Shown here in pieces: positions 1 to 63,012 of a stretch of 64,000 bases of DNA. The position numbers and the translations under genes are program-made. Below the pieces are notes generated by a model. The model saw nothing but the letters and a program-made list of their open reading frames with translations, did no database searches and had not been told where the DNA came from. Each line of letters begins with the position of its first letter. Within the stretch, counting starts at the first letter, position 1. This stretch comes from Anaeramoeba flamelloides (taxonomy: Eukaryota; Metamonada; Anaeramoebidae), in the NCBI GenBank assembly GCA_027625915.1, contig JANTQA010000070.1, positions 14,575,001-14,639,000 of the forward strand. Reading direction: 5' to 3'.

Positions 1-3000
1 GCGAGTGTAATAGGAAATTCCCGAGAAGGTTGTGGTATCTGGATCGAATTTAATCCAATCTGGCAGTGGCTTCCTGTTCGCCAGCTCTGCAGAATAGCTT
101 AAATGCCCATCGTCTTCAAAGGAATCATATGGGAAGCTGTATTCGAAATGTTCCTCTATGGGAGTTTCAAAATTGGCAATGGGCTTTACGAGTTCCGGCG
201 CTGTGTTCGAAACATTGAGCATAAAGGTATCGGAGGCGCTTTTCATGCAACCATCTTGGGCAATTACCTGAATTGTGAGGGATTCGCCGCAAGCCGGAAG
301 ATCGAAGGACGTGAAGGTTTTGTTGTGCGAATGGAAATCCAACCAATCGGGGAGTGAAGAGCCATTGGCAAGTCGGCAAGAATATGAGAGTGGCTCATGT
401 CCGTTTGTTAGGAAGGTTCCGGGTGGCACCTCATATACCAATTGCTCTTCGTGCGATCCAATGACTTGGTCGTCAATGGTTTTGTTCAGGTAGGGATTGT
501 GGTTAATGACATATATTTTGAATGTCTGGCTTTGTGTGTTATTGCAGCTATCCGAGGCATAAACGCTGATGCGATTGGATTTGTTGATCAGGCTACAGTC
601 TGTGAGTGTGCCGTTTGTCTCGAATGTATGCGTCTCCTCATCAAAAAGCATCCAAGGCGGCAAATCGGATCCGTTTTCCTGCTCGCTGGCATACGACAGT
701 TCTTCATATTCGGGGTCTTGGAATGTGTCGTCCGGGAACCTGTACGAAGAGGAATCACCAATATACCAAAATTGGTTTTCCAAATTGGAGTCTATTGTTG
801 GGATTTCGTTTATGGATTCGAAATTGAAGTAGTTCGGATCCGATTGCGAACCGCAGAAGTTGATCGCGACGACTTGCAGATCCAAATCCTGGGTACACCA
901 GGGGATCTCGTCTGAATAAAAGGTTTTGTTGTTGGAAAAGAAATCCATCCAATCGGGGAGTGGCTCACCATTGGATTTTGTTGCTTCGTACCGTAATCCT
1001 GGATCGTTTGATGATCGGTCTGGATTACGAAAGGCATAAAAATTGAACGTGTATCGCCAATAGTGGCTTGTTGGGGATGATGTTTGCTTGGTGAGATCAT
1101 ACCGTATCACGGGCTCCGAGTTGGCAATTGTTAGTTGGTAGCTTTCGCTGAGAGACAGGTTACACATGCCACGTGTTGCCGTGATCTCGATCTCGTACTT
1201 GTTCCCCACGAGCTGGCAATCGTCAATGGCGCCGATATACGTTCGGTTTTCAGGAAAAAAGCTTAGCCAGGGAGGTAAATCTGAGCCGTCCTGTTGTCTG
1301 CTCGAATAGACCAAGTTTTCATTATCGGGCGCCAAGAAGGTATCCTCTGAGAATCGGTAAACCCAATTTTCATCGTAGGGCGCTTCGCTTTGATCTGGCA
1401 ATGCCCTGTTTAAGGTTGGCCGCTCCCCGTCGATTGTCAAGGTAAAGGAATCTGTAACCGTCTTTCCGCAATCGTTCGTCACCGTTATCTCGAGCAAATA
1501 TTGGTCGCCAATGATGGAGCAATCAAAGGGCACGTTCCCGTTGAAGGTATGGTTGCTTGGGTGGAAATCTAGCCACGCGTCAAGCTCGGGGTGGCTCTCC
1601 AAATTTGCCTCATAGGTGATCGTCAGCCCCTCGTCGCCAGCAGAAAAGCTGTCGTCGGGGATTTCAAATTGGAAATACTTGCTGACATGGCAAGTTTGAT
1701 CATCAATTGGGTTTGCAACCTTGGGCCTGATCGGTCCAAATGCTTGTTCGTAGATGAAGTACTTTGTGCCTATTTGCTCGATACCACTCCACAAGATTAG
1801 AAAGTGATCGGAGCTTGAGTCAAGGGCAAGGACATTTGGCTGTTTTTGGTAACGGTCCGTGATCCCATTGACAAGCAGCTCTGAGCCGATCCGTGAGTGA
1901 TCATCGGATCGAAAGAATTGTGTGTATATGCCCTCATCCGAGCCATCTTGCCCGTCGCTCATCCAGGCTACAGCAAACCGATCGCCCTGCATGCCATATG
2001 AAGAGATCGAGATGTAGTCTTTGTCGTGGGCTAAGTCAGTGCTGACACGGAACTCAGACCCGACTTTGGAATTGTCAGCCGAATTGAAGAATTGGCAATA
2101 GATATCATGGACATTGTTGGCATTGTCATGCTTACTTTTCCAAGCAACGGCAAACTGTTGACCTGTGCTTAGCATGGAGGCTACACTTGCGCCGTATTGC
2201 GAATAGCTCCTTTCGGTGTTCACCAGGAACTCGGTGCCCGTGGTTGCGCCCGTGTACCCGTCGAATCGCTGGCCATAGACATTCCGATAGCTTCCAGTGT
2301 GGAGACTATCCCAAACAACAACAAACTCGTCGCCGTTCGAGATCAGCGCAACACTAGGCGCCATTTGATCGTTGCTTGCTTCGCTGTTGACTTGAAATTC
2401 GCTCCCAACCTTGGTGGCGTTTTCGTACCCTTCAAACATTTGTCCATAGATGTCAAAATTAGACGAGTGTTCACTTTCCCAAACAATGACAAACCGGTTG
2501 CCTGGAAGACAAACAACCTTTGGGAATTCTTGATCACCAGCTGTGTTCGTGTGAACTTGGAATTCGAGACCAACTTTGCTCGCATCAGTGGAATTGAAGA
2601 CTTGCGCATAGACACCATACCCATCGCCGTCTTGTTGCAAACTTTGCCACGTAACAACAAAATAAGAAAGGTCCTTGCTTGTGTCAACCGAAGGGTAAGT
2701 TTGGCCGATTTGTGTGTACGTGTTTGCCTGGAATTGTTCAACGATTAATCCATTTGGAAACTCTGTTTTTGTTTTTTGTTTGTTAGAATGGGTTTTGTTC
2801 AGCTCAAGCTTTTGGAAAGGAGGAGAAAATCTCACAAAAATTAGAATTATAAAAATAAATTTATACCAAGTATTGCTCCATAAATATTTGTAGTTGTGCC
2901 GGATAAACTTGACCAAAGAACTACAAACTGCTCTCCTTTTAATTGGCTTGACGCTGGTGTTGCTGCATACTCATTCCAACGCACATTCACCTCATGGTCA

Positions 3001-9500: not shown

Positions 9501-11129
9501 TTACTTTTGAATCAAATTTTGGTTTTCATTTGGTTCAGGATTGATTTTTATTGTTTTTTTCGACTTTTTAAAAAAGAGAAGAATTGAGGTGATTAATAGG
9601 ATGAATAAAAGTAAACTAAGTAATCCAATTATTAAAGGGAGATATTTGCCTCTTGTTTGAGTTGAATATTTGCCACTGCAGCTACTAAATTGTTCTGTTT
9701 TGGTAAAGTCTTTCGAGCTTGGGGCAAAAGGTGCAATTGTGCTATTAGGGTTGGTGGGCAAATTGGAAAAGGCATCAAAAAGAGAATGCCAACCTTGCTT
9801 TCTTCTGCCTCTGTAATCAAAGATGTAGGGCTTGTTTGGCCGCAACCATCTAAACATCATAAAGCTATCATACCAACTCGTTGCGTCACTCACGCCCCAG
9901 AAGGTGATCCCTTGACAATTTGCAAAATGGAAGCAGCCATTCACCCAATCCCGATAATAGTCGGCTTGCAACTGATAGGGGTCTGACGTTGACGATTTCT
10001 TTTCCCTTGTAAAGAGCCGTAAGCGAGAATCCAACTCTGTAATTTCAAATTTCAAGCCTAATTGATCTATTTGGCTCATGAAATCTCGGATGTTATTATT
10101 GTTTTGAAGTTGATACATGGCATGCCCCTGGATACCAACGCCGTCTAAAGGGACGTTTGATTGTGTCAAGTTTTTCAATAAAGAAAGAAAGCCTTTAACT
10201 TTTGGCGAATCTAATGAATAGTCGACAAAGGCTTCATTAATAAACAAAGTTGTTGTGACGTTGTTGGATTCCTGTGAACACTCTCTTGCGTACTGCAAAG
10301 AATAGTGAATGTACTTGTGACCCAAGATCTTTTGAAACAGGTTTCCTTCAGATCCAATACCGCCCTCAGAGTTCATGGGCTCGTTAATTACGTCCCATGT
10401 GTGAACGTGATCCTTGTAGTGCTGCATCACCGTGCAGATATGGTTTTTCAGCAATTCCTTTGCTTCCGAGACGGAAACCTGCGGAGACTTGTTTTGGAAT
10501 TTTTCCTGAAGCCTCTTGGGATAGAAGGTCCTCCACCGTGTGTCCCAAATTAAGGTATGCCCGCGAACCCTTAAGTGGTAATCGTTTGTTGCTTGCTTGA
10601 TCATTTTGTCAGCGTTTTTCCAATCGTACTCTGTACAGCTCCCATCTGATGATAAGTGGCTCCATTTTAAAAAATTTTCTGGTGTCACGGAGCTGTATTC
10701 CAAGTTAAGCAAATGTGAGTCGCACGTTTCCTCGATTCTTAGCAAGCCCCCAAAATATTTACCTGTTTCTATGGAAACCTGTCGTAATGATTTGCTAACG
10801 TTGCCCTTTTCACTTGCATTTGTTAAATAGGTTGCTTCAAATTGCGGCGGGATCAGAAGAAGACAAAAAATTAAACAAAAAATTGTGAGCAAGAATAATA
10901 CAGACCACCAGAGAAAGAAGTTTCTTTTTCTTATGCTTCTGCACTTGATTTCGTTTTTGCTTTTGCTTTTGCTCGTGGAAAACAAGAGTGCAATAGTGAA
11001 TTCTTTTTTGTGTATCGTGAGCGATTTTGCAAAAAGAATCAGATTCAAAACAAAAAAGATTAAACCAAAAAGGATAAAAATAAGAAAGATCGAAAAGATT
11101 GTTTCAAATTCTTTTGGAATTATTCCCAT
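9501..11129 (-). CDS. GH10 endo-1,4-beta-xylanase-like protein with membrane segments
   Basis: Single exon of 542 residues. Two N-terminal membrane segments lie at ~11-33 and ~71-93, then a GH10 catalytic domain (~115-460), a Ser/Thr-rich linker, and a third hydrophobic segment (~500-525) with a basic tail. GH10 hallmarks: V-T-P-E-N-F-L-K-W (149-156, Lys155), R-G-H-T-L-I-W (189-195), W-D-V-I-N-E-P with acid/base Glu250, Q-G-H at 334-336, nucleophile Glu365 in I-T-E-L-D, and I-T-F-W-G-V-S-D. Both catalytic glutamates are present, so hydrolysis of a xylan-like beta-1,4-glycan is plausible. The usual W-H-S-Q stretch reads W-D-T-R (195-198), so substrate binding may differ. GH10 is normally soluble and secreted; three membrane segments are unusual. 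The domain is most common in bacteria, fungi and plants, so transfer is possible but not shown. The Met at 11129 is the first in frame before the first membrane segment. Confidence 0.9.
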   Translation of the reverse strand: MGIIPKEFETIFSIFLIFILFGLIFFVLNLILFAKSLTIHKKEFTIALLFSTSKSKSKNEIKCRSIRKRNFFLWWSVLFLLTIFCLIFCLLLIPPQFEATYLTNASEKGNVSKSLRQVSIETGKYFGGLLRIEETCDSHLLNLEYSSVTPENFLKWSHLSSDGSCTEYDWKNADKMIKQATNDYHLRVRGHTLIWDTRWRTFYPKRLQEKFQNKSPQVSVSEAKELLKNHICTVMQHYKDHVHTWDVINEPMNSEGGIGSEGNLFQKILGHKYIHYSLQYARECSQESNNVTTTLFINEAFVDYSLDSPKVKGFLSLLKNLTQSNVPLDGVGIQGHAMYQLQNNNNIRDFMSQIDQLGLKFEITELDSRLRLFTREKKSSTSDPYQLQADYYRDWVNGCFHFANCQGITFWGVSDATSWYDSFMMFRWLRPNKPYIFDYRGRRKQGWHSLFDAFSNLPTNPNSTIAPFAPSSKDFTKTEQFSSCSGKYSTQTRGKYLPLIIGLLSLLLFILLITSILLFFKKSKKTIKINPEPNENQNLIQK

Positions 11130-22551: not shown

Positions 22552-23617
22552 TATTAAAAGGGGAAAAGAGAGAATATAACAATAAATTAATTAGCTTAAA
22601 AATTAATTCTTTTAATATTAGAGGATTAAACAATAAAACAAAAATCTCTATTTTAGAATCTTTTTTATTAAAATATAATGCTGATATATGTTTAATACAA
22701 GAATCAAAAATAACAAAAAAACCCGATTTTTTTAAATTATTTCTCAATTAACAAAAAATCTTATGGTAATAATAATAATAAAGGAGGTTTGTTAATTATT
22801 GTCAAAAATATCTTTAAAGAGTTTACTCGGGAAATTGTTATATCGGATCTTGATATGATGGGAATACAATTCACTGATTATGTAATAATAAATATTTATA
22901 AAAGACATGATAGAAATGTAGAAATTAATAAAAAATATTTAATGAATTACAAAAATATCAAAATCATAAAACAATTATTGGTGGTGATTTTAATTTAAAA
23001 GATAATGATATAAAATTTTTTTCAATTTTAAATTTTAAAATTACTCTAAACAATAAACCAAGTCGAAAAGATAATAACTTAGACTATTTCATTTCAAATT
23101 TTAATAATCTTCAATTCAGTAAATCAAAAACATTAATCAATAAAATTAGTGATCATTATGCTATTTTAAACAAATATATAATAAATAAAAATTGGGAAAT
23201 ACAAAAAATATATAAAATTAAAGATATACCTAAATTTCAAAAAACGTTTATAAACTATTTCAAAAATACCAACTACTATTTAAATGATTCAAATTTTAAA
23301 AAATTCAAAAAACAATTCTTAATAAAAGAAAGAAATGTTTTAAACATTCGAAAAGAAGATTATAAATTATATAGTTTGATCTATAAAATCTTTGAAAATA
23401 ATGAATTAATTCAAGAAATTAAAGATACGAATAGAAAGAAGTATTTAAAATTGTTAGACCAAATTAATTCGGAATTTGAAAATAATGAAAATTTTTGGAA
23501 AAAGTTGTTTAAATTTAGACAAACTTCGAGTAAAATGATTTTAAATAATAAAAATTTAGAAAAAATTATATTTCGGGTTTGTTAATTCAAAAAGTAAAAA
23601 ACCAAAAAAAATATGTA

Positions 23618-23814
23618 CAGTCAGTTTTACTTTTAAGGCACAAACTTTCAACGAAATTTAAGGCACAATAAAAATCTCAAATTAAAGCACAAAATTCAAA
23701 TTCTAGTAAAAATAAATTGTAAAAAAAAAAATTCCAAATTTTGTGCCTTAATTTGAGAATTTTTTGTGCCTTAAATTTCGTTGAAAGTTTGTGTCTTAAA
23801 AGTGAAACTGACTG
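23618..23814. mobile_element. MITE-1 copy 12 (in LINE)
   Basis: Full-length copy with TA flanks, between the endonuclease and RT domains. Confidence 0.9.
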
Positions 23815-24380
23815 TAATAAATTTTATTAAAAAATTTAAATTAAATAAAAGATTCCTATTTAATATTGAAATAGAATGAATATTCTCAATTACAAATATT
23901 AAAACAATTATTAAATATCAAAAAAATAAATCAGTCAAAGAATTTGATAAAATATATCAATATAAATCCATAAAAAATCAAAACAGTAAATATTATTTGA
24001 ATTATGAAAACTTTATTGAAACAATTCAAAAAATATTTCTAAATTGGATTCAAGACATCTCTCAGGAAAATATTAATTTTATCAAAAAAAGAAATTTATT
24101 ATTCATTCATAAATCAGGAGACGAAGGGATACCGCTGAATTATCGACCAATTTCAATTAATCAAACTCTCCCAAGATTTTTTCTTAAATTATTATATGCG
24201 GGAATACAAGATTCTTGGGACTTAGTTTCAAAAAGACAATTTGGATTTAAGAAAAAAATAGATACAAGAATTGCAGTTCTCAATTTTTTGAATGAATATC
24301 AAAAAATAAAAATGAGAAATAATAAAAAAGAAAATATCTATATAGTTACAATCGATATTCAAAAATGCTATGATTCTATA

Positions 24381-24576
24381 CAGTCAGTTTCACTTTTAAG
24401 GCACAAACTTTCAACGAAATTTAAGGCACATAAAAAATATCAAATAAAGGCACAAAATTTGGAATTCTAGTAAAAATAAATTGTAAAAAAAAAATCCAAA
24501 TTTTGTGCCTTAATTTGAGATTTTGTTGTGCCTTAAATTTCGTTGTAAGTTTGTGCCTTAAAAGTGAAACTGACTG
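24381..24576. mobile_element. MITE-1 copy 13 (in LINE)
   Basis: Full-length copy with TA flanks. It splits the RT right after D-I-Q-K-C-Y-D-S-I. The frame on the other side continues when the copy and one TA are ignored. Confidence 0.9.
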
Positions 24577-25883
24577 TACATCATTCTTTAATTTATTATT
24601 CAATCAAAAAATTTATTAAAAATGAAATTATAAAAAATATCTACTTGCATATTACTCAAAAGAAGGGATAGGTATTTATCAAGGAGATCCATTATCACCT
24701 TTATTATTTGGGTTTATTTCTCATTTTTTATTAGAAAAAATCAAATCATTAGCAATACATGTTCAAATGTTTGCTGATGATTTGATTTTGATTATGAAAG
24801 GATCAATGATAGAAATCAATTTTCAACTGGAAAAAATTTTTAAAATTATAAAAGATTTTGGAATGAATCCGAATAATAAAAAAACGATAAAAACTTGAAT
24901 TCCAATGGAAATTTTATATCTTGGTATTTGGCTAGATAAAAAAACACATTTAAAATTTAACCTTGATAAAGTTAAAAAAATTTCAAAAATCGAGTCAATA
25001 TTTTAGAAAAAAAAAATTTACTAATGGATTAAAAATTCACTTTTTTAAAGCGGTAATACATATTCAATTATTATATGGATTAGAAATATTTGATCTAACT
25101 GAAAATGATTTCAAAGAAATAGACATTTGGATCAATAAAAAGATCACTAAATTCCTTTTAAAAATTAATCCACATTCCCCAAGACTTATTTATAAAACAG
25201 AAGCAAAAATTGATTCAGTAAGGATAACAATATATAAGAGAAAATATAAATTAATTCAAAAATTAAATTTTTTAGGATTCGAAAAACTAATTAAACTTCT
25301 GCCATTTAGAGAAAAAGAAGTTGAAAATATTAACTGGAAATCAAAAACATTAAAAGATTTTGAATTAGAATTAGACAACTATCGAATTAATCAATTAAAG
25401 AATAGCCCAAGTTGGAAAGTACGAAAATACCTAAAAATCGTTACTATTCAAGAAAATATTAATAAACAACAAAAATATTTAAAATGGAAAGGCTCTACCT
25501 CAATCTTAAAACTTAGAACATTCACAAATTATTTAAACAGGTACTCTTATGTTATGAATGAAGATAAATCAAAATTTTGTAAATTATGCAAAAAAATAAA
25601 TAATTTAGATATCATTGAAGATTTAGATCATTTTCTCTGGAACTGCCCAGCCTATGAAAATAATCGTAAAATCTGGATATCTGAATTAAAAAAGATTAAT
25701 ATATCTCATATATTAAAAAACAATAATATTTCTAATATTATTAACAAAAAAGATTCCATTACTTTATTAGCCCTAGTGGAAAACAAAAGTATATGGAAAT
25801 CTTTAAAAAAATTTCTAAATCACAATTTAGGAATTCGGGCAAACAAGAGGAACTAAAAACTCCTCCCTTAAACAATAAAAAAA

Positions 25884-57615: not shown

Positions 57616-60147
57616 ATGATAAGCGTTGCAGTTGAACAAATCCGTGAAATGATGGACATAAAGCCCAACATTAGAAACGTGTCTGTCGTTGGTCAACTGG
57701 GTCATGGGAAAACAGTGCTGTTTGATTATTTAATTTCGAAGTCTGGTATTATTTCTGAAAAAATGGCAGGCAAAGTAAGATTCATGGACACAAGACAAGA
57801 TGAACAAGAGCAATGTCTCACGATCAAGTCCACTGCTGTTTCTCTAGTTTATGAAAAGAAAAAAGAAGACGAAATCCCAGTGGACGCTGACGGGCGTGCC
57901 TTTCTTCTTAATCTGATCGACACGCCAGGGCATGTTCAATTTGCATCTGAAGTCAGTGCCGCACTCCGTGTCACCGATGGTGCGCTAGTTGTTGTTAGCT
58001 GCGTTGAAGGTTTCGGTGTGCAAACCGAAACGGCCCTAAGACAAGCGCTCGCTGAAAGAGTCAAGCCCGTTGTCATGCTTAGCAAGGTTGATCGCGCACT
58101 TTTGGATCTTCAATTGGCACCAGAGGAGCTCTACCAAAGATTTGTCAAGGAAATTGAATCTGTGAATGGGGTCATTGCCGCATATGAGGACGAGCTTTTA
58201 GGCCGTGTGCAAGTGAGCCCCGAAGCAGGGACCGTTGCCTTTGGATCTGGTCTTCAGGGATGGGGTTTCACCTTGAATCACTTTGCCAAATTATATGGTT
58301 CCAAATTTGGCGTCAAGCCTGAAAAGCTTGTTACCAGGCTATGGGGAGACAAATTTTGGGATCCCAAAAGAAAGAAATGGGACAAGAAGCCCACCGACCA
58401 AAAAAACAAACCTTTGCAAAGAGGCTTTTGTCAATTTGTTCTGGATCCAATTTACCAATTATTCCGAGTCATCATGTCGGGTGATCACGAAAAATCCCTC
58501 AAACTCATCCAAAAGGTAGGTGTCCAATTACGTGGAAAGGAAAAAGAAGAAACAGTCACAGGAAAGGCACTCTTACAAACTGTGATGAGAAAATTCCTTC
58601 CGGCTGCTGACGCCCTACTGGAAATGCTGGTTCTCCATTTACCCTCCCCGGTCACCGCGCAAAGGTACCGAGTCAAAAATTTATACGAAGGACCAATGGA
58701 AGACGAATGTGCTAAGGGCATAGCCAGCTGTGATCCAAAGGCGCCACTGATGGTGTATGTCAGCAAAATGGTACCGGCCCCCGATAAGGGAAGATTTTAC
58801 TCCTTTGGTAGGGTCTTTTCCGGCACATTAAAGGGAGGGCAAAAGGTCAGAATCATGGGGCCAGATTACACCCCAGGCAAGAAAAAGGGTTTATTTATCA
58901 AACCCATCCCAAGAGTTGTTGTCATGATGGGGAACTACGTCGAAAAGGTCAGCGATTGCCCGTGTGGTAGCATTATCGGTATTATCGGTATTGATAAATA
59001 TTTGTTGAAAACGGGAACAATTTCCACATCTGAAGAAGCCTATAGCATCAAGGCCATGAAATTCTCCGTCTCTCCTGTTGCGTGTGTCGCTGTGGAACCC
59101 AAGAATGCCTCTGATTTACCAAAGCTTATCGAGGGCTTTCGAAGACTGTGTAGATCTGATCAATGTGTCAAAGCCTTTACTGAAGATTCTGGTCAACATA
59201 TCGTCGCTGGAGCTGGCGAATTCCATTTACAAGTCTGTTTAAAAGACTTTGAAGAAAATTACTGCCAAGGTGTCCCACTTACCAAATCCAAGCCATTTGT
59301 CTCCTATCGCGAAACTGTTACAAAGGAATCCTCTCAAATGTGTATAACCAAATCTCCCAATAAGCATAACATCTTATTTGTCAAAGCAGAACCGCTCCAT
59401 ATTGATCTATGTATTGAGATTGAGAATGGTGACGTGGGATCCAAGCAAAGGTCAAAGATACGCTCAAGATATCTAGCTGAAAAATATGACTGGGATCTTG
59501 GCTATGCCAGAAAAATTTGGGCCTTCGGTCCCGAATCGGTAGGGGTCAATATCTTGGTTAATCAAACGAAGGGTGTCAAATATCTAAAAAAAATTAAGGA
59601 TTCCATCGTTGCAGCATTCGAATGGGCAACCCAAGCAGGTGCCCTTTGTGAAGAAAACATGAGGGGCATCAGATTCAATCTCCATGATGCAAAAATTCCC
59701 CACCGAGCTCTTTCGAGAGGTGGGGGGCAAATAATTTCAACAGCTAGAAGATCCTTTTATGCGTCGCAATTGAGCGCTATGCCAACCTTGATGGAGCCAA
59801 TCTACCTTTGTGAAATCCAATGTTTAGAGTCTGCCATTGGCAGCATCAAGGATATACTTTCCCAAAGAAGAGGCCAGCTGATATCTGTCGAAAACTCATC
59901 CAGATCCCCAATCCACACAATCAAATCTTACCTGCCTGTCATAGAATCCTTTGGCTCCACTGAAGCCATTAGATCAAAAACCAATGCAAAGCAATTGCCT
60001 CAATATGTCTTCCACCATTGGGAAACCATGCAAGGAGAATACTTTGAAGAAAACGGGATCCTTTCTGATACGATCAAAGAGAATAGACTCAGAAAAGGTC
60101 TTGAGGCAACAATCCCCCCTTTAGAAAAATATACTGATCAACTATAA
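57616..60147 (+). CDS. EF-2-like translational GTPase lacking the diphthamide histidine
   Basis: Single exon, 843 residues (animal eEF2 is 858), colinear with eEF2 throughout: M-I-S-V-A-V-E-Q-I-R start, T-I-K-S-T-A switch I, D-T-P-G-H (102-106), F-G-S-G-L-Q-G-W, L-P-S-P-V-T-A-Q, K-M-V-P-A-P-D-K-G-R-F-Y-S-F-G-R-V-F-S-G, A-G-A-G-E-F-H-L, S-K-S-P-N-K-H-N, C-E-E-N-M-R-G-I-R-F and R-G-G-G-Q-I-I. Changes at key sites: P-loop A-H-V-D-H-G-K-S is G-Q-L-G-H-G-K-T (26-33, Asp29 lost); the eEF2-kinase Thr is Met57; N-K-M-D is S-K-V-D (156-159); the domain IV tip L-H-A-D-A-I-H-R-G-G-G is I-P-H-R-A-L-S-R-G-G-G, so Ser700 replaces the diphthamide His. GTP may still bind but translocation fidelity and regulation should differ. 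Closer to eEF2 than to EFL1 or Snu114 by motif order. Most likely a paralogue beside a normal eEF2 elsewhere. GC-rich codons suggest good expression. Confidence 0.93.
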   Translation: MISVAVEQIREMMDIKPNIRNVSVVGQLGHGKTVLFDYLISKSGIISEKMAGKVRFMDTRQDEQEQCLTIKSTAVSLVYEKKKEDEIPVDADGRAFLLNLIDTPGHVQFASEVSAALRVTDGALVVVSCVEGFGVQTETALRQALAERVKPVVMLSKVDRALLDLQLAPEELYQRFVKEIESVNGVIAAYEDELLGRVQVSPEAGTVAFGSGLQGWGFTLNHFAKLYGSKFGVKPEKLVTRLWGDKFWDPKRKKWDKKPTDQKNKPLQRGFCQFVLDPIYQLFRVIMSGDHEKSLKLIQKVGVQLRGKEKEETVTGKALLQTVMRKFLPAADALLEMLVLHLPSPVTAQRYRVKNLYEGPMEDECAKGIASCDPKAPLMVYVSKMVPAPDKGRFYSFGRVFSGTLKGGQKVRIMGPDYTPGKKKGLFIKPIPRVVVMMGNYVEKVSDCPCGSIIGIIGIDKYLLKTGTISTSEEAYSIKAMKFSVSPVACVAVEPKNASDLPKLIEGFRRLCRSDQCVKAFTEDSGQHIVAGAGEFHLQVCLKDFEENYCQGVPLTKSKPFVSYRETVTKESSQMCITKSPNKHNILFVKAEPLHIDLCIEIENGDVGSKQRSKIRSRYLAEKYDWDLGYARKIWAFGPESVGVNILVNQTKGVKYLKKIKDSIVAAFEWATQAGALCEENMRGIRFNLHDAKIPHRALSRGGGQIISTARRSFYASQLSAMPTLMEPIYLCEIQCLESAIGSIKDILSQRRGQLISVENSSRSPIHTIKSYLPVIESFGSTEAIRSKTNAKQLPQYVFHHWETMQGEYFEENGILSDTIKENRLRKGLEATIPPLEKYTDQL

Positions 60148-60569: not shown

Positions 60570-63012
60570 CAAATCAACAAATTAGTGATTAAATTTTCTT
60601 TTATACTAGAATGTATATTATCAATGATTTTTTGTTTTTTTTTTTGATAATTTGAAAATATTTTTTTGATAAAAATATCAAATACTCTTGATAAATTCAA
60701 AATTTGAAGATAATCTAAAAAAAAAAAAAAAAAATTCTTTAAAATAAGGTATTTTCAAAAAAGTAGGGCATTTTTTTACATTTCAATAAAAAATCATCTT
60801 TGTTAGTGGAAGTATTTGTTAATTGATATTATTAAATTAAGTTTAATATTAATATCGATTATTTCACTGACTATAGTATTTATTTTAAAATATGTCGGTT
60901 GAAACATCTAGAAAAAATGAAAAAAAAAAAAAAAAATAGAACTTTTTATGGTGAAAATAATGTACAGACCAATTCCAATAAAAAACTCGACATTTGAAAA
61001 GAGTATCAATGATTTTTTAAACATAAAAATACAGTTACATGTTTTTGATTCTATTTGAAAACTTTTTTGAGATCAAAAAAGTTATGAAAACGATTTTTTC
61101 GATCAAAAAGAAAATAATAAACACCAATTTTCACGTAAAAAATATCAGATTAAACCGAGATAAGAAATTTTATTATCTTTGATTTATGTAATACAATACT
61201 AAGAAACATATTGAATTATTATCCCGGACTGATAAATGATATTTAATGATTTTATATGTTTAAATACTTTTTTGAAATTTGGGTTTAAAAGATATATTTT
61301 ATAATAAATTTACGCTTATTTATTGGAAATAGTTTTGTATGTTTTAATTTTTTTCGAAAACAATTAATTTCAATATCTTAATAAATATTCAAAAAATATC
61401 TTTAAATGTTGAAACTGGTTCATTTCTATTGTTAGGTTATGAAAAGATAAATTTTATTCTTTTGTGGCGTGTTGGTGTATAAAAATAAACACTCAATATT
61501 TTTGACTTTTTTTTTTTTTTATTTTTATTATATAGTAATGTTTTTTTCTATTTTTTTTCAAAAAAAATTAGGAAAAAAAAATAAAAGGAAATAAAGAAAA
61601 AAAATTTATTAAAAGATCTCAATTAGAAAACAAAAATTTCTTGAAATAGAATAATACAAACTTGAAATTCCAAGTAAATTAGCTCTTGATATGTTGGATA
61701 AATTTAATTATTTTTCGAAACTTTTGCTTTTTTCTTTTTTTTTTCGATTTATTTTTAATACTTAATTGTTTTGGAATTGTTTTTTTATTGAAAAGTTTTT
61801 AATTGATAAATAAATTCGTGTAATTTCATTCAGTTTCCAAAATAAAAAATATTTTATTCTTTAATTTTTCTTTTTCTTACTAATATTTCTTTTCTTTATT
61901 TTTCTTTTGAAAGACATTTTCAACTTCTTTTTTATTGTGTTTGAAAAATTCTTCCATTAATAAATCTATCAACTTGGGAATGTTTGCCTATTTTTAATAC
62001 CCCTTTACTAATTCTCAGATTTTTTCACATAATTTCTGGTAAAAAATAGACTAGTGTTTTTTCATGATTGAAAAAAGACTAAAAAATAATTGATTTTCAA
62101 AATTTCTGAATTTTTTCCTTTTATCCTTTTGGAAAAAAAGTGAAACAGGAAAAAAAATGAAATGGGGTTTTTAATTTGGAACATTAAGAGAACTTGAATA
62201 TGAAAATTAAGATAAATTAAAAAAAGAATAAATAAATAAATAAAGACAAAATGAAGAATTCAGTACAATAACAGTTATTTTTTAATAAAATCTTTTGGTA
62301 TGATTTTTTCTTTGATTGGTCAATTATTCAAAATATTGTTCAAAAAATGACTATTTTTGAGATCTCCAAAACCATCTTTAACACTTTCAATCTGAAAGTA
62401 GATTGAAATTGTGTATTAATTGGTTTGATTAAAAATAATCTAATGGGTTATTATTTGAAGGTTATTTGTATATTTCTTTTATTGATTTTACTTTTTGTTT
62501 CTATTTAGGTTTACAATTAAAAACTGTGTTGAAATTTTTTTTCCCTGTTTCACTTTTTTTGCAGATAGGTTTGATTTTTTTAAAGTTTAAAATAATTATT
62601 GTTTTTTATTAATAAAGCAGATTTGTTTTAATCCAAGTTATTCCAAAATTTATTGAGTTTTATCTTCAAGTGAATTTTAGTACACTTCCTTCAGAGACAC
62701 TAAGATTTCTTTCTTATTCGATCATAATTGGTTTTTTTTTTTTTAATATAATTGGAATATATTGAACTTTGAACTTTTCAAAAATGAGAAAAATGGATCA
62801 GAACTTTTAAAAACAACAATTCACATCTAAAAAGTACACTAAAAGTTGATTTTGTTTTTTTAGTATTCAGATTTTTATTTTGTTTTGCTATTTCCAGATG
62901 GGGTAAATTTTTTTTGGATTTGCTATTGAATTTACTATATTGTTTTTTTTTAGTTTACTAGAGACTTAAATCTTTCGAATTAAACAAAAAATAAATAAAT
63001 AAAATAAATAAA
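60570..63012. other. Intergenic, no gene seen
   Basis: Extremely AT-rich with many homopolymer tracts; no frame or repeat I can support. Confidence 0.4.

Follow-up and report, generated by a model that had tools for sequence, protein, structure and literature searches.

An eEF2-like gene without the diphthamide histidine, beside canonical eEF2, in the genome of Anaeramoeba flamelloides

Introduction

What is the role of a gene that has kept the full length of the elongation factor eEF2, and that carries a serine where the histidine converted into diphthamide is expected? The question is raised by a gene, named W hereafter, located at 57616..60147 on the forward strand of the window, that is, the whole stretch of 64,000 nucleotides of Anaeramoeba flamelloides DNA that was analysed. 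An earlier note on this DNA had seen in it a retained specialised translocase or ribosome factor. We have placed W in the context of its host genome (254 Mb in 76 contigs), where the window occupies C70:14575001-14639000 and where the search of the eEF2 family gave 39 matches that manual reading reduced to 19 loci; the family counts given below are lower bounds. Besides W, we distinguish type A, the canonical eEF2 of the host, and types C and D, two further eEF2 types that bear the histidine.

The site itself is well documented in yeast. At the tip of domain IV, the triad formed by H583, H694 and diphthamide-699 contacts a codon-anticodon-like helix (PMC4896748). Substitutions of His699, as well as H694N, reportedly result in -1 frameshifting (PMC6193676), and eEF2 with H699N reaches normal levels and sustains growth, which is impaired at high temperature (PMC11651573).

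A full-length eEF2 frame with altered motifs

W is an intronless frame of 843 codons followed by a stop, which opens with ATG and is free of internal stops. Its best match in the PDB is a mammalian eEF2 chain (9b0s, which we take to be human), aligned from residue 5 to residue 843 of 843 with 1073 bits; the full-length colinearity with eEF2 described in the earlier note is confirmed. The best Snu114 chain reaches 553 bits, EFL1 409 bits and EF-G chains at most 148 bits, and the EF-G and EF-G2 models score W far below the aEF-2 model. The Pfam domains follow the order found in eEF2 (EF-Tu GTP-binding domain, domains II, III and IV, C-terminal domain), while the Pfam EFL1 domain scores 24.3, under its cut-off of 30.9.

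The nucleotide-binding motifs, all on the forward strand, have been altered rather than destroyed. The P-loop reads GQLGHGKT (aa 26-33, 57691..57714) instead of the canonical AHVDHGKS, with Asp29 replaced by Gly (GGT for GAT) and GxxxxGK(S/T) intact. The G4 motif has become S-K-V-D (aa 156-159, 58081..58092) by replacement of Asn156 by Ser (AGC for AAC), so that both losses announced for the G domain are real. Switch-I Thr69 (57820..57822) is conserved, as is the G3 motif D-T-P-G-H (aa 102-106, 57919..57939), where the next V-D reads V-Q (D108Q). As GxxxxGK(S/T), the switch-I threonine and DxPGH are retained, GTP binding is likely, and probably survives in W. The eEF2-kinase threonine is indeed missing, with Met57 in its place (57784..57786); this loss is not peculiar to W, for methionine is also found in all five D copies of the host, and we have discarded it as a hallmark of the gene.

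At the tip of domain IV, motif alignment delimits the loop AKIPHRALSRGG (aa 692-703, 59689..59724), altered at seven of the nine sites where A, D and the mammalian chain all agree; C is altered at three of the nine. The L-H-x-D-x-x-H stretch has been replaced, as had been claimed (L694I, H695P, D697R and H700S). Codon comparison places Pro695 (59698..59700) at the second histidine of the triad, His694 of yeast, and Ser700 (59713..59715) at the diphthamide histidine, His699 of yeast and presumably position 715 in the human numbering. His584 (59365..59367), equated by alignment with yeast His583, is the sole triad histidine retained, the two others being lost. Codon 700 is TCG, where five host copies (two of the five A copies, C, and two of the five D copies) have CAT. 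All three bases differ, which makes a base-calling slip improbable, and a sequencing error at this codon was discarded on that account. At the protein level the tip histidine is present in all five A copies, in C and in the four unbroken D copies; in the broken D copy, L017, it lies in the second piece. The existence of an eEF2-like gene without the diphthamide histidine is therefore confirmed, and, to judge from Ser700, W itself cannot be diphthamidated. Next to this position, the RGGGQ ending common to the mammalian chain, W and C has become RGGAQ in all five copies of type A and RGENQ in type D.

The eEF2 family of the host

Among the matches listed, W is represented by one copy. Type A has at least five intronless copies (L002-L006), 99.2-100% identical to one another, with tip HADAIHRGGAQ; type C has at least one copy, with one intron and tip HTDAIHRGGGQ; type D has at least five, with an intron at a common place (around residue 131) and tip HADSIHRGENQ. 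Among the latter, L016, L018, L026 and L027 are unbroken and L017 is split by a frameshift; a further EF2 copy, L019, is decayed and contains stops. A second EF-2 with the canonical histidine, for which the earlier note had advised a search, is thus present, in at least five A copies and in types C and D, which rules out W as the only EF-2 of the genome. With 52-53% identity to W, the D type constitutes a second diverged, histidine-bearing eEF2 family in this host.

The host also has at least three copies of Snu114 and two of EFL1, labelled after the best PDB match of one locus each, the remainder being named by likeness. The P-loop of host Snu114 reads GHLHHGKT, without the aspartate, and its tip histidine is missing as far as can be judged by eye. 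A very diverged EF2-like locus, L023 (G000:C34:6956000-6965000; 25-28% identity), has lost the NKxD region and has no diphthamide histidine; no P-loop exon was matched within the stretch fetched around it, and it is possibly a pseudo-GTPase.

Anaeramoeba genomes are described as A+T-rich, that of A. flamelloides with more than 1100 ribosomal protein genes (PMC11550330). We observed the same tendency for uL3 (L035-L038 and further places), with nine full-length matches, eight of them equal in score, and another match in two pieces with stops: this gene is amplified in the host. A comparison of uL3 with PDB chains gave no placement of the host. The five-copy A-type eEF2 fits a uL3-like amplification pattern; the one-copy W does not.

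Descent of W

Identity of W is highest with A (74%), followed by C (64%), the mammalian chain (56%) and D (53%). A first tree, of 12 rows and without the broken D copy L017, was rooted on mammalian eEF2; it unites W, C and A in a clade with support 100/100, in which W and C are sisters (98/94). A tree of 13 rows, which takes in two Snu114, two EFL1 and L023 and leaves out four A copies, one D copy, one Snu114 and L019, recovers the A, C, W clade (96/99) and again the pair formed by W and C (98/95). The possibility raised by the earlier note that W could fall inside Snu114 or EFL1 was submitted to AU tests on the latter tree, and both groupings were rejected (p 0.011 and 0.003, respectively); descent of W from either family was discarded as a consequence. 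We conclude that W is a single-copy in-paralogue of the eEF2 of its own host, neither Snu114 nor EFL1.

The position of W with respect to C is less firm. A clade of W with A is not rejected (AU p 0.097), both W and C being long branches, and site patterns are divided: 20 sites associate W with C against A and the mammalian chain, 14 associate W with A against C and the mammalian chain, and 8 associate A with C against W and the mammalian chain. C is the probable sister paralogue of W. Introns are absent from W and A and occupy one common site in C and D, a distribution that several histories could explain. As the mammalian chain is the only eEF2 from outside the host in these trees, the age of the duplication is bounded only by the split from animals; dS between W and A (about 0.73) is not saturated, which suggests that the duplication was fairly recent. 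Region by region, the smallest dS values are those of G' (0.44) and domain II (0.57), which makes some gene conversion with A possible there; the longest identical DNA tract between W and A measures 43 bases. No relatives were found in viral_contigs or in genome_contigs, the latter scanned once.

Exclusion by descent does not settle function, and W might act as a ribosome or RNP factor other than a translocase, as happened earlier when Snu114 (in the spliceosome) and EFL1 (in 60S maturation) arose from eEF2. Host Snu114 has likewise lost the P-loop aspartate and, by eye, the tip histidine, and the tip and domain V of W have been remodelled to the point that windows there are 36-49% identical to the mammalian chain. 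W retains 74% identity with canonical eEF2, however, and has no added domain, in a host already provided with three Snu114 and two EFL1 copies, and the rejected groupings, while they bear on descent rather than on function, go in the same direction. We consider this explanation quite doubtful, and keep to an eEF2-like function in what follows.

Selection, codon use and the location of changes

When NG86 distances are simply divided three ways, the W branch has dN 0.115 and dS 0.559, hence dN/dS 0.205 (bootstrap 0.157-0.268, 832 codons); the same procedure gives 0.274 for the C branch. Values among A copies are 0.005-0.03 and among D copies 0.03-0.06, far below that of W, which is thus much less constrained. 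When A was allowed to drift neutrally to 218 amino acid differences, under an AT-biased mutation scheme of our own choice, at least eight stops appeared in all 200 runs (mean 16.8); W has none. W is fast-evolving, yet it has been under past purifying selection, and we reject on these two grounds a pseudogene long in decay. Were only its latest changes neutral, the probability of meeting no stop would be 0.14 for 20 changes and 0.04 for 40, with no such case in 200 runs for 60. The last 20 changes or so may therefore be neutral, and a very recent decay of W is compatible with the data.

This leads us to another explanation, in which W is a redundant duplicate whose constraint has been relaxed and whose decay is at an early stage, the motif losses being the first changes of an unneeded copy. 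Its protein branch is long (0.28, against 0.026 for the stem of A), its codon adaptation index is low, decayed EF2 copies (L017 and L019) are present in the same genome, and five canonical copies could render a single W dispensable. Yet its frame is fully open, with a single in-frame insertion of two codons relative to A, where the decaying copies of the same genome display frame damage, by frameshift in L017 and by stops in L019; the dN/dS value and the stops met in every neutral run speak in the same sense. Finally, the changes are clustered in motifs, and in windows of G' and domain II identity to A stays at 79-91%, a figure to which gene conversion may have contributed. Early decay thus appears doubtful, and retention of W the better reading.

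The third-position GC content of W is 0.41, where the composition of intergenic DNA predicts 0.21, a difference in favour of a retained gene; its 2-kb flanks have 22% and 19% GC. Its codon adaptation index, computed with the A copies themselves as reference set, is 0.373, to be compared with 0.77-0.79 for these copies and with a neutral expectation of 0.332; the GH10 gene of the window and the D copies are likewise low (0.33-0.40). High expression of W is unlikely with a codon use so remote from that of the canonical copies. A visual, positional comparison of upstream sequences revealed no motif common to W and the A copies.

The location of the changes distinguishes W from its relatives better than their number. 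A, C, D and the mammalian chain agree at 350 sites, of which 48 are changed in W; a similar count of sites gives 41 changed in C alone and 73 in D alone, so that W is not the most diverged. With A, D and the mammalian chain as reference, W is altered at 20 of 57 motif sites and at 62 of 370 others (Fisher p=0.002), and C at 10 of 57 and 64 of 367 (p=1); a direct comparison of W with C inside motifs is borderline (p=0.055). When the reference is formed by A, C and the mammalian chain, the figures are 15 of 54 against 56 of 393 for W (p=0.016) and 7 of 54 against 89 of 392 for D (p=0.11). The motif ranges used throughout are standard, and were set after inspection of the alignment. The changes of W are concentrated in the motifs of the tip and in those that bind the nucleotide; those of C are not, and the concentration seen in W is not plain chance.

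The diphthamide pathway in the host

The earlier note had mentioned that parabasalids, presumed relatives of the host, are reported to be without diphthamide synthesis genes, hinting that the same might hold here. The genome says otherwise. Genes of the Dph1/Dph2 family occupy four places, all with open frames: two read as DPH2, among which L013 passes the DPH2 equivalog cut-off, and two as DPH1, a reading of our own for genes that pass the Dph1/Dph2 domain model and fail the DPH2 model. DPH5 is found at two loci (314 bits for a cut-off of 114) and DPH6 at two, above the Pfam cut-off, with 169 bits where the archaeal NCBIfam model has its cut-off at 197. One locus associates DnaJ with a CSL zinc finger, a combination that we take to denote DPH4; the CSL search of the host genome gave no separate match for DPH3. 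A host devoid of diphthamide synthesis was discarded in view of these genes: with DPH1, DPH2, DPH4, DPH5 and DPH6 it very probably makes diphthamide, and this is the most likely reading of its genome. The modification would be carried by A, and perhaps by C and D.

With diphthamide in the cell, W could also be viewed as a backup eEF2, immune to the toxins by which bacterial prey or symbionts ADP-ribosylate this residue. Ser700 cannot be diphthamidated, yeast cells with H699N eEF2 grow in the presence of diphtheria toxin (PMC11651573), and Anaeramoeba is described as living with bacterial symbionts (PMC11550330). A single change of the histidine would suffice for that purpose, however, and the changes in G1, G3, G4 and domain V would stay unexplained. 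We find this view very improbable, and return below to a factor that serves in translation.

Surroundings of W in the window

Just downstream of W, a repeat of about 590 bp (60741-61336) is present in high copy number: a first look at the genome gave 14362 candidates, and among the 40 that were scored the full-length matches were 80-84% identical. The downstream flank of W led to no homologous region in the genome, only to this high-copy repeat. Further away, a broken LINE-like element lies at 22932-25853 on the forward strand, where one of three scanned pieces matches a reverse transcriptase (RVT_1, 8e-8). On the reverse strand are an intronless gene for a GH10 family glycoside hydrolase (9501-11129; Pfam 2e-63), perhaps laterally acquired, and an open frame of 990 codons that crosses the edge of the window (1-2970) and contains He_PIG putative Ig repeats; the first 2 kb of the window, in the stretch of this frame, have 48% GC.

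A second eEF2 with its own use?

The explanation that we favour, and which we hold to be about evenly balanced between right and wrong, is that W is a ribosome-binding EF-2 of conditional, specialised or slow action, impossible to diphthamidate, that works beside canonical eEF2. The eEF2 gene of the host was duplicated after the lineage split from animals; one product, W, stayed intact and selected, and its remodelling affected the nucleotide-binding loops, the tip of domain IV and domain V. It would probably still bind GTP and the ribosome, the latter in view of its colinear fold and conserved domains. Hydrolysis of GTP, or translocation, would be slow or different: D29G and N156S suggest a weakened GTPase, and analogy suggests slow translocation. 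The single copy and the codon use would point to conditional use. As a point against this explanation, S-K-x-D and the loss of the P-loop aspartate may leave the GTPase nearly normal. From the tip losses and the growth of the yeast mutants, W could still translocate, with less accuracy. In sum, the open, retained paralogue seen by the earlier note stands; its specialised function is what we infer.

Bacterial EFGII and Bacteroides EF-G2, taken together here as analogues, may not form one subfamily; both differ from W in being bacterial, the outcome of a separate duplication, and we know of no diphthamide in bacteria that these factors could have lost. The likeness is that of a second translocase paralogue, W standing next to diphthamidated eEF2 much as they would stand next to EF-G. 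The P-loop aspartate reportedly binds a monovalent cation in translational GTPases; EFGII, with its divergent G domain, has a glycine there, and can replace EF-G while translocating slowly (PMC4342817). Bacteroides EF-G2, as reported, is a paralogue that allows translation without GTP and that responds to carbon limitation by strong induction, and by analogy we see in it the closest working counterpart of W (PMC10294740). A more specific form of the explanation, a permanently diphthamide-free second eEF2 that translocates slowly or without normal GTP hydrolysis in special conditions, seems to us doubtful.

Other known systems resemble W in part. With canonical eukaryotic eEF2 it has in common the full-length domain order, its identity to the host copies, DxPGH, the switch-I threonine and GxxxxGK(S/T); it departs from it by the absence of the diphthamide histidine and of the equivalent of His694, by glycine at the P-loop aspartate and by SKxD in place of NKxD. 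Snu114 and EFL1 (Ria1) are eEF2-derived GTPases too, and the host Snu114 is without tip histidine and P-loop aspartate; they are ancient paralogues (PMC4342817), whereas W groups apart and is without their extensions: host Snu114 has an acidic N-terminal extension where W starts like eEF2, and the domain insertions of EFL1 are missing from W. The archaeal EF-2 paralogues, like W, miss residues needed for diphthamide; they are described in archaea without dph genes (PMC10307638), while the host of W retains dph genes and canonical EF-2, the duplication having occurred within its lineage. Lastly, multiple eEF2 versions, often far apart in sequence, are reported within single protists such as Naegleria (PMC4342817), in a passage that is silent on the diphthamide histidine, so that they are likened to W by description only. 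In the open-licence literature we found no report of a eukaryotic eEF2 in-paralogue of the kind of W; since diverged duplicates are reported in protists, W-like genes may exist unnoticed.

If the explanation is true, W would be a eukaryotic counterpart of EF-G2, and a natural experiment on the roles of diphthamide and of the P-loop aspartate. Its pattern differs from that described in archaea, in which paralogues of EF-2 that miss the site go with the loss of DPH genes (PMC10307638). Here a modifiable and an unmodifiable eEF2 would coexist in one cell with the modifying enzymes, which would allow the two to be compared on the same ribosomes.
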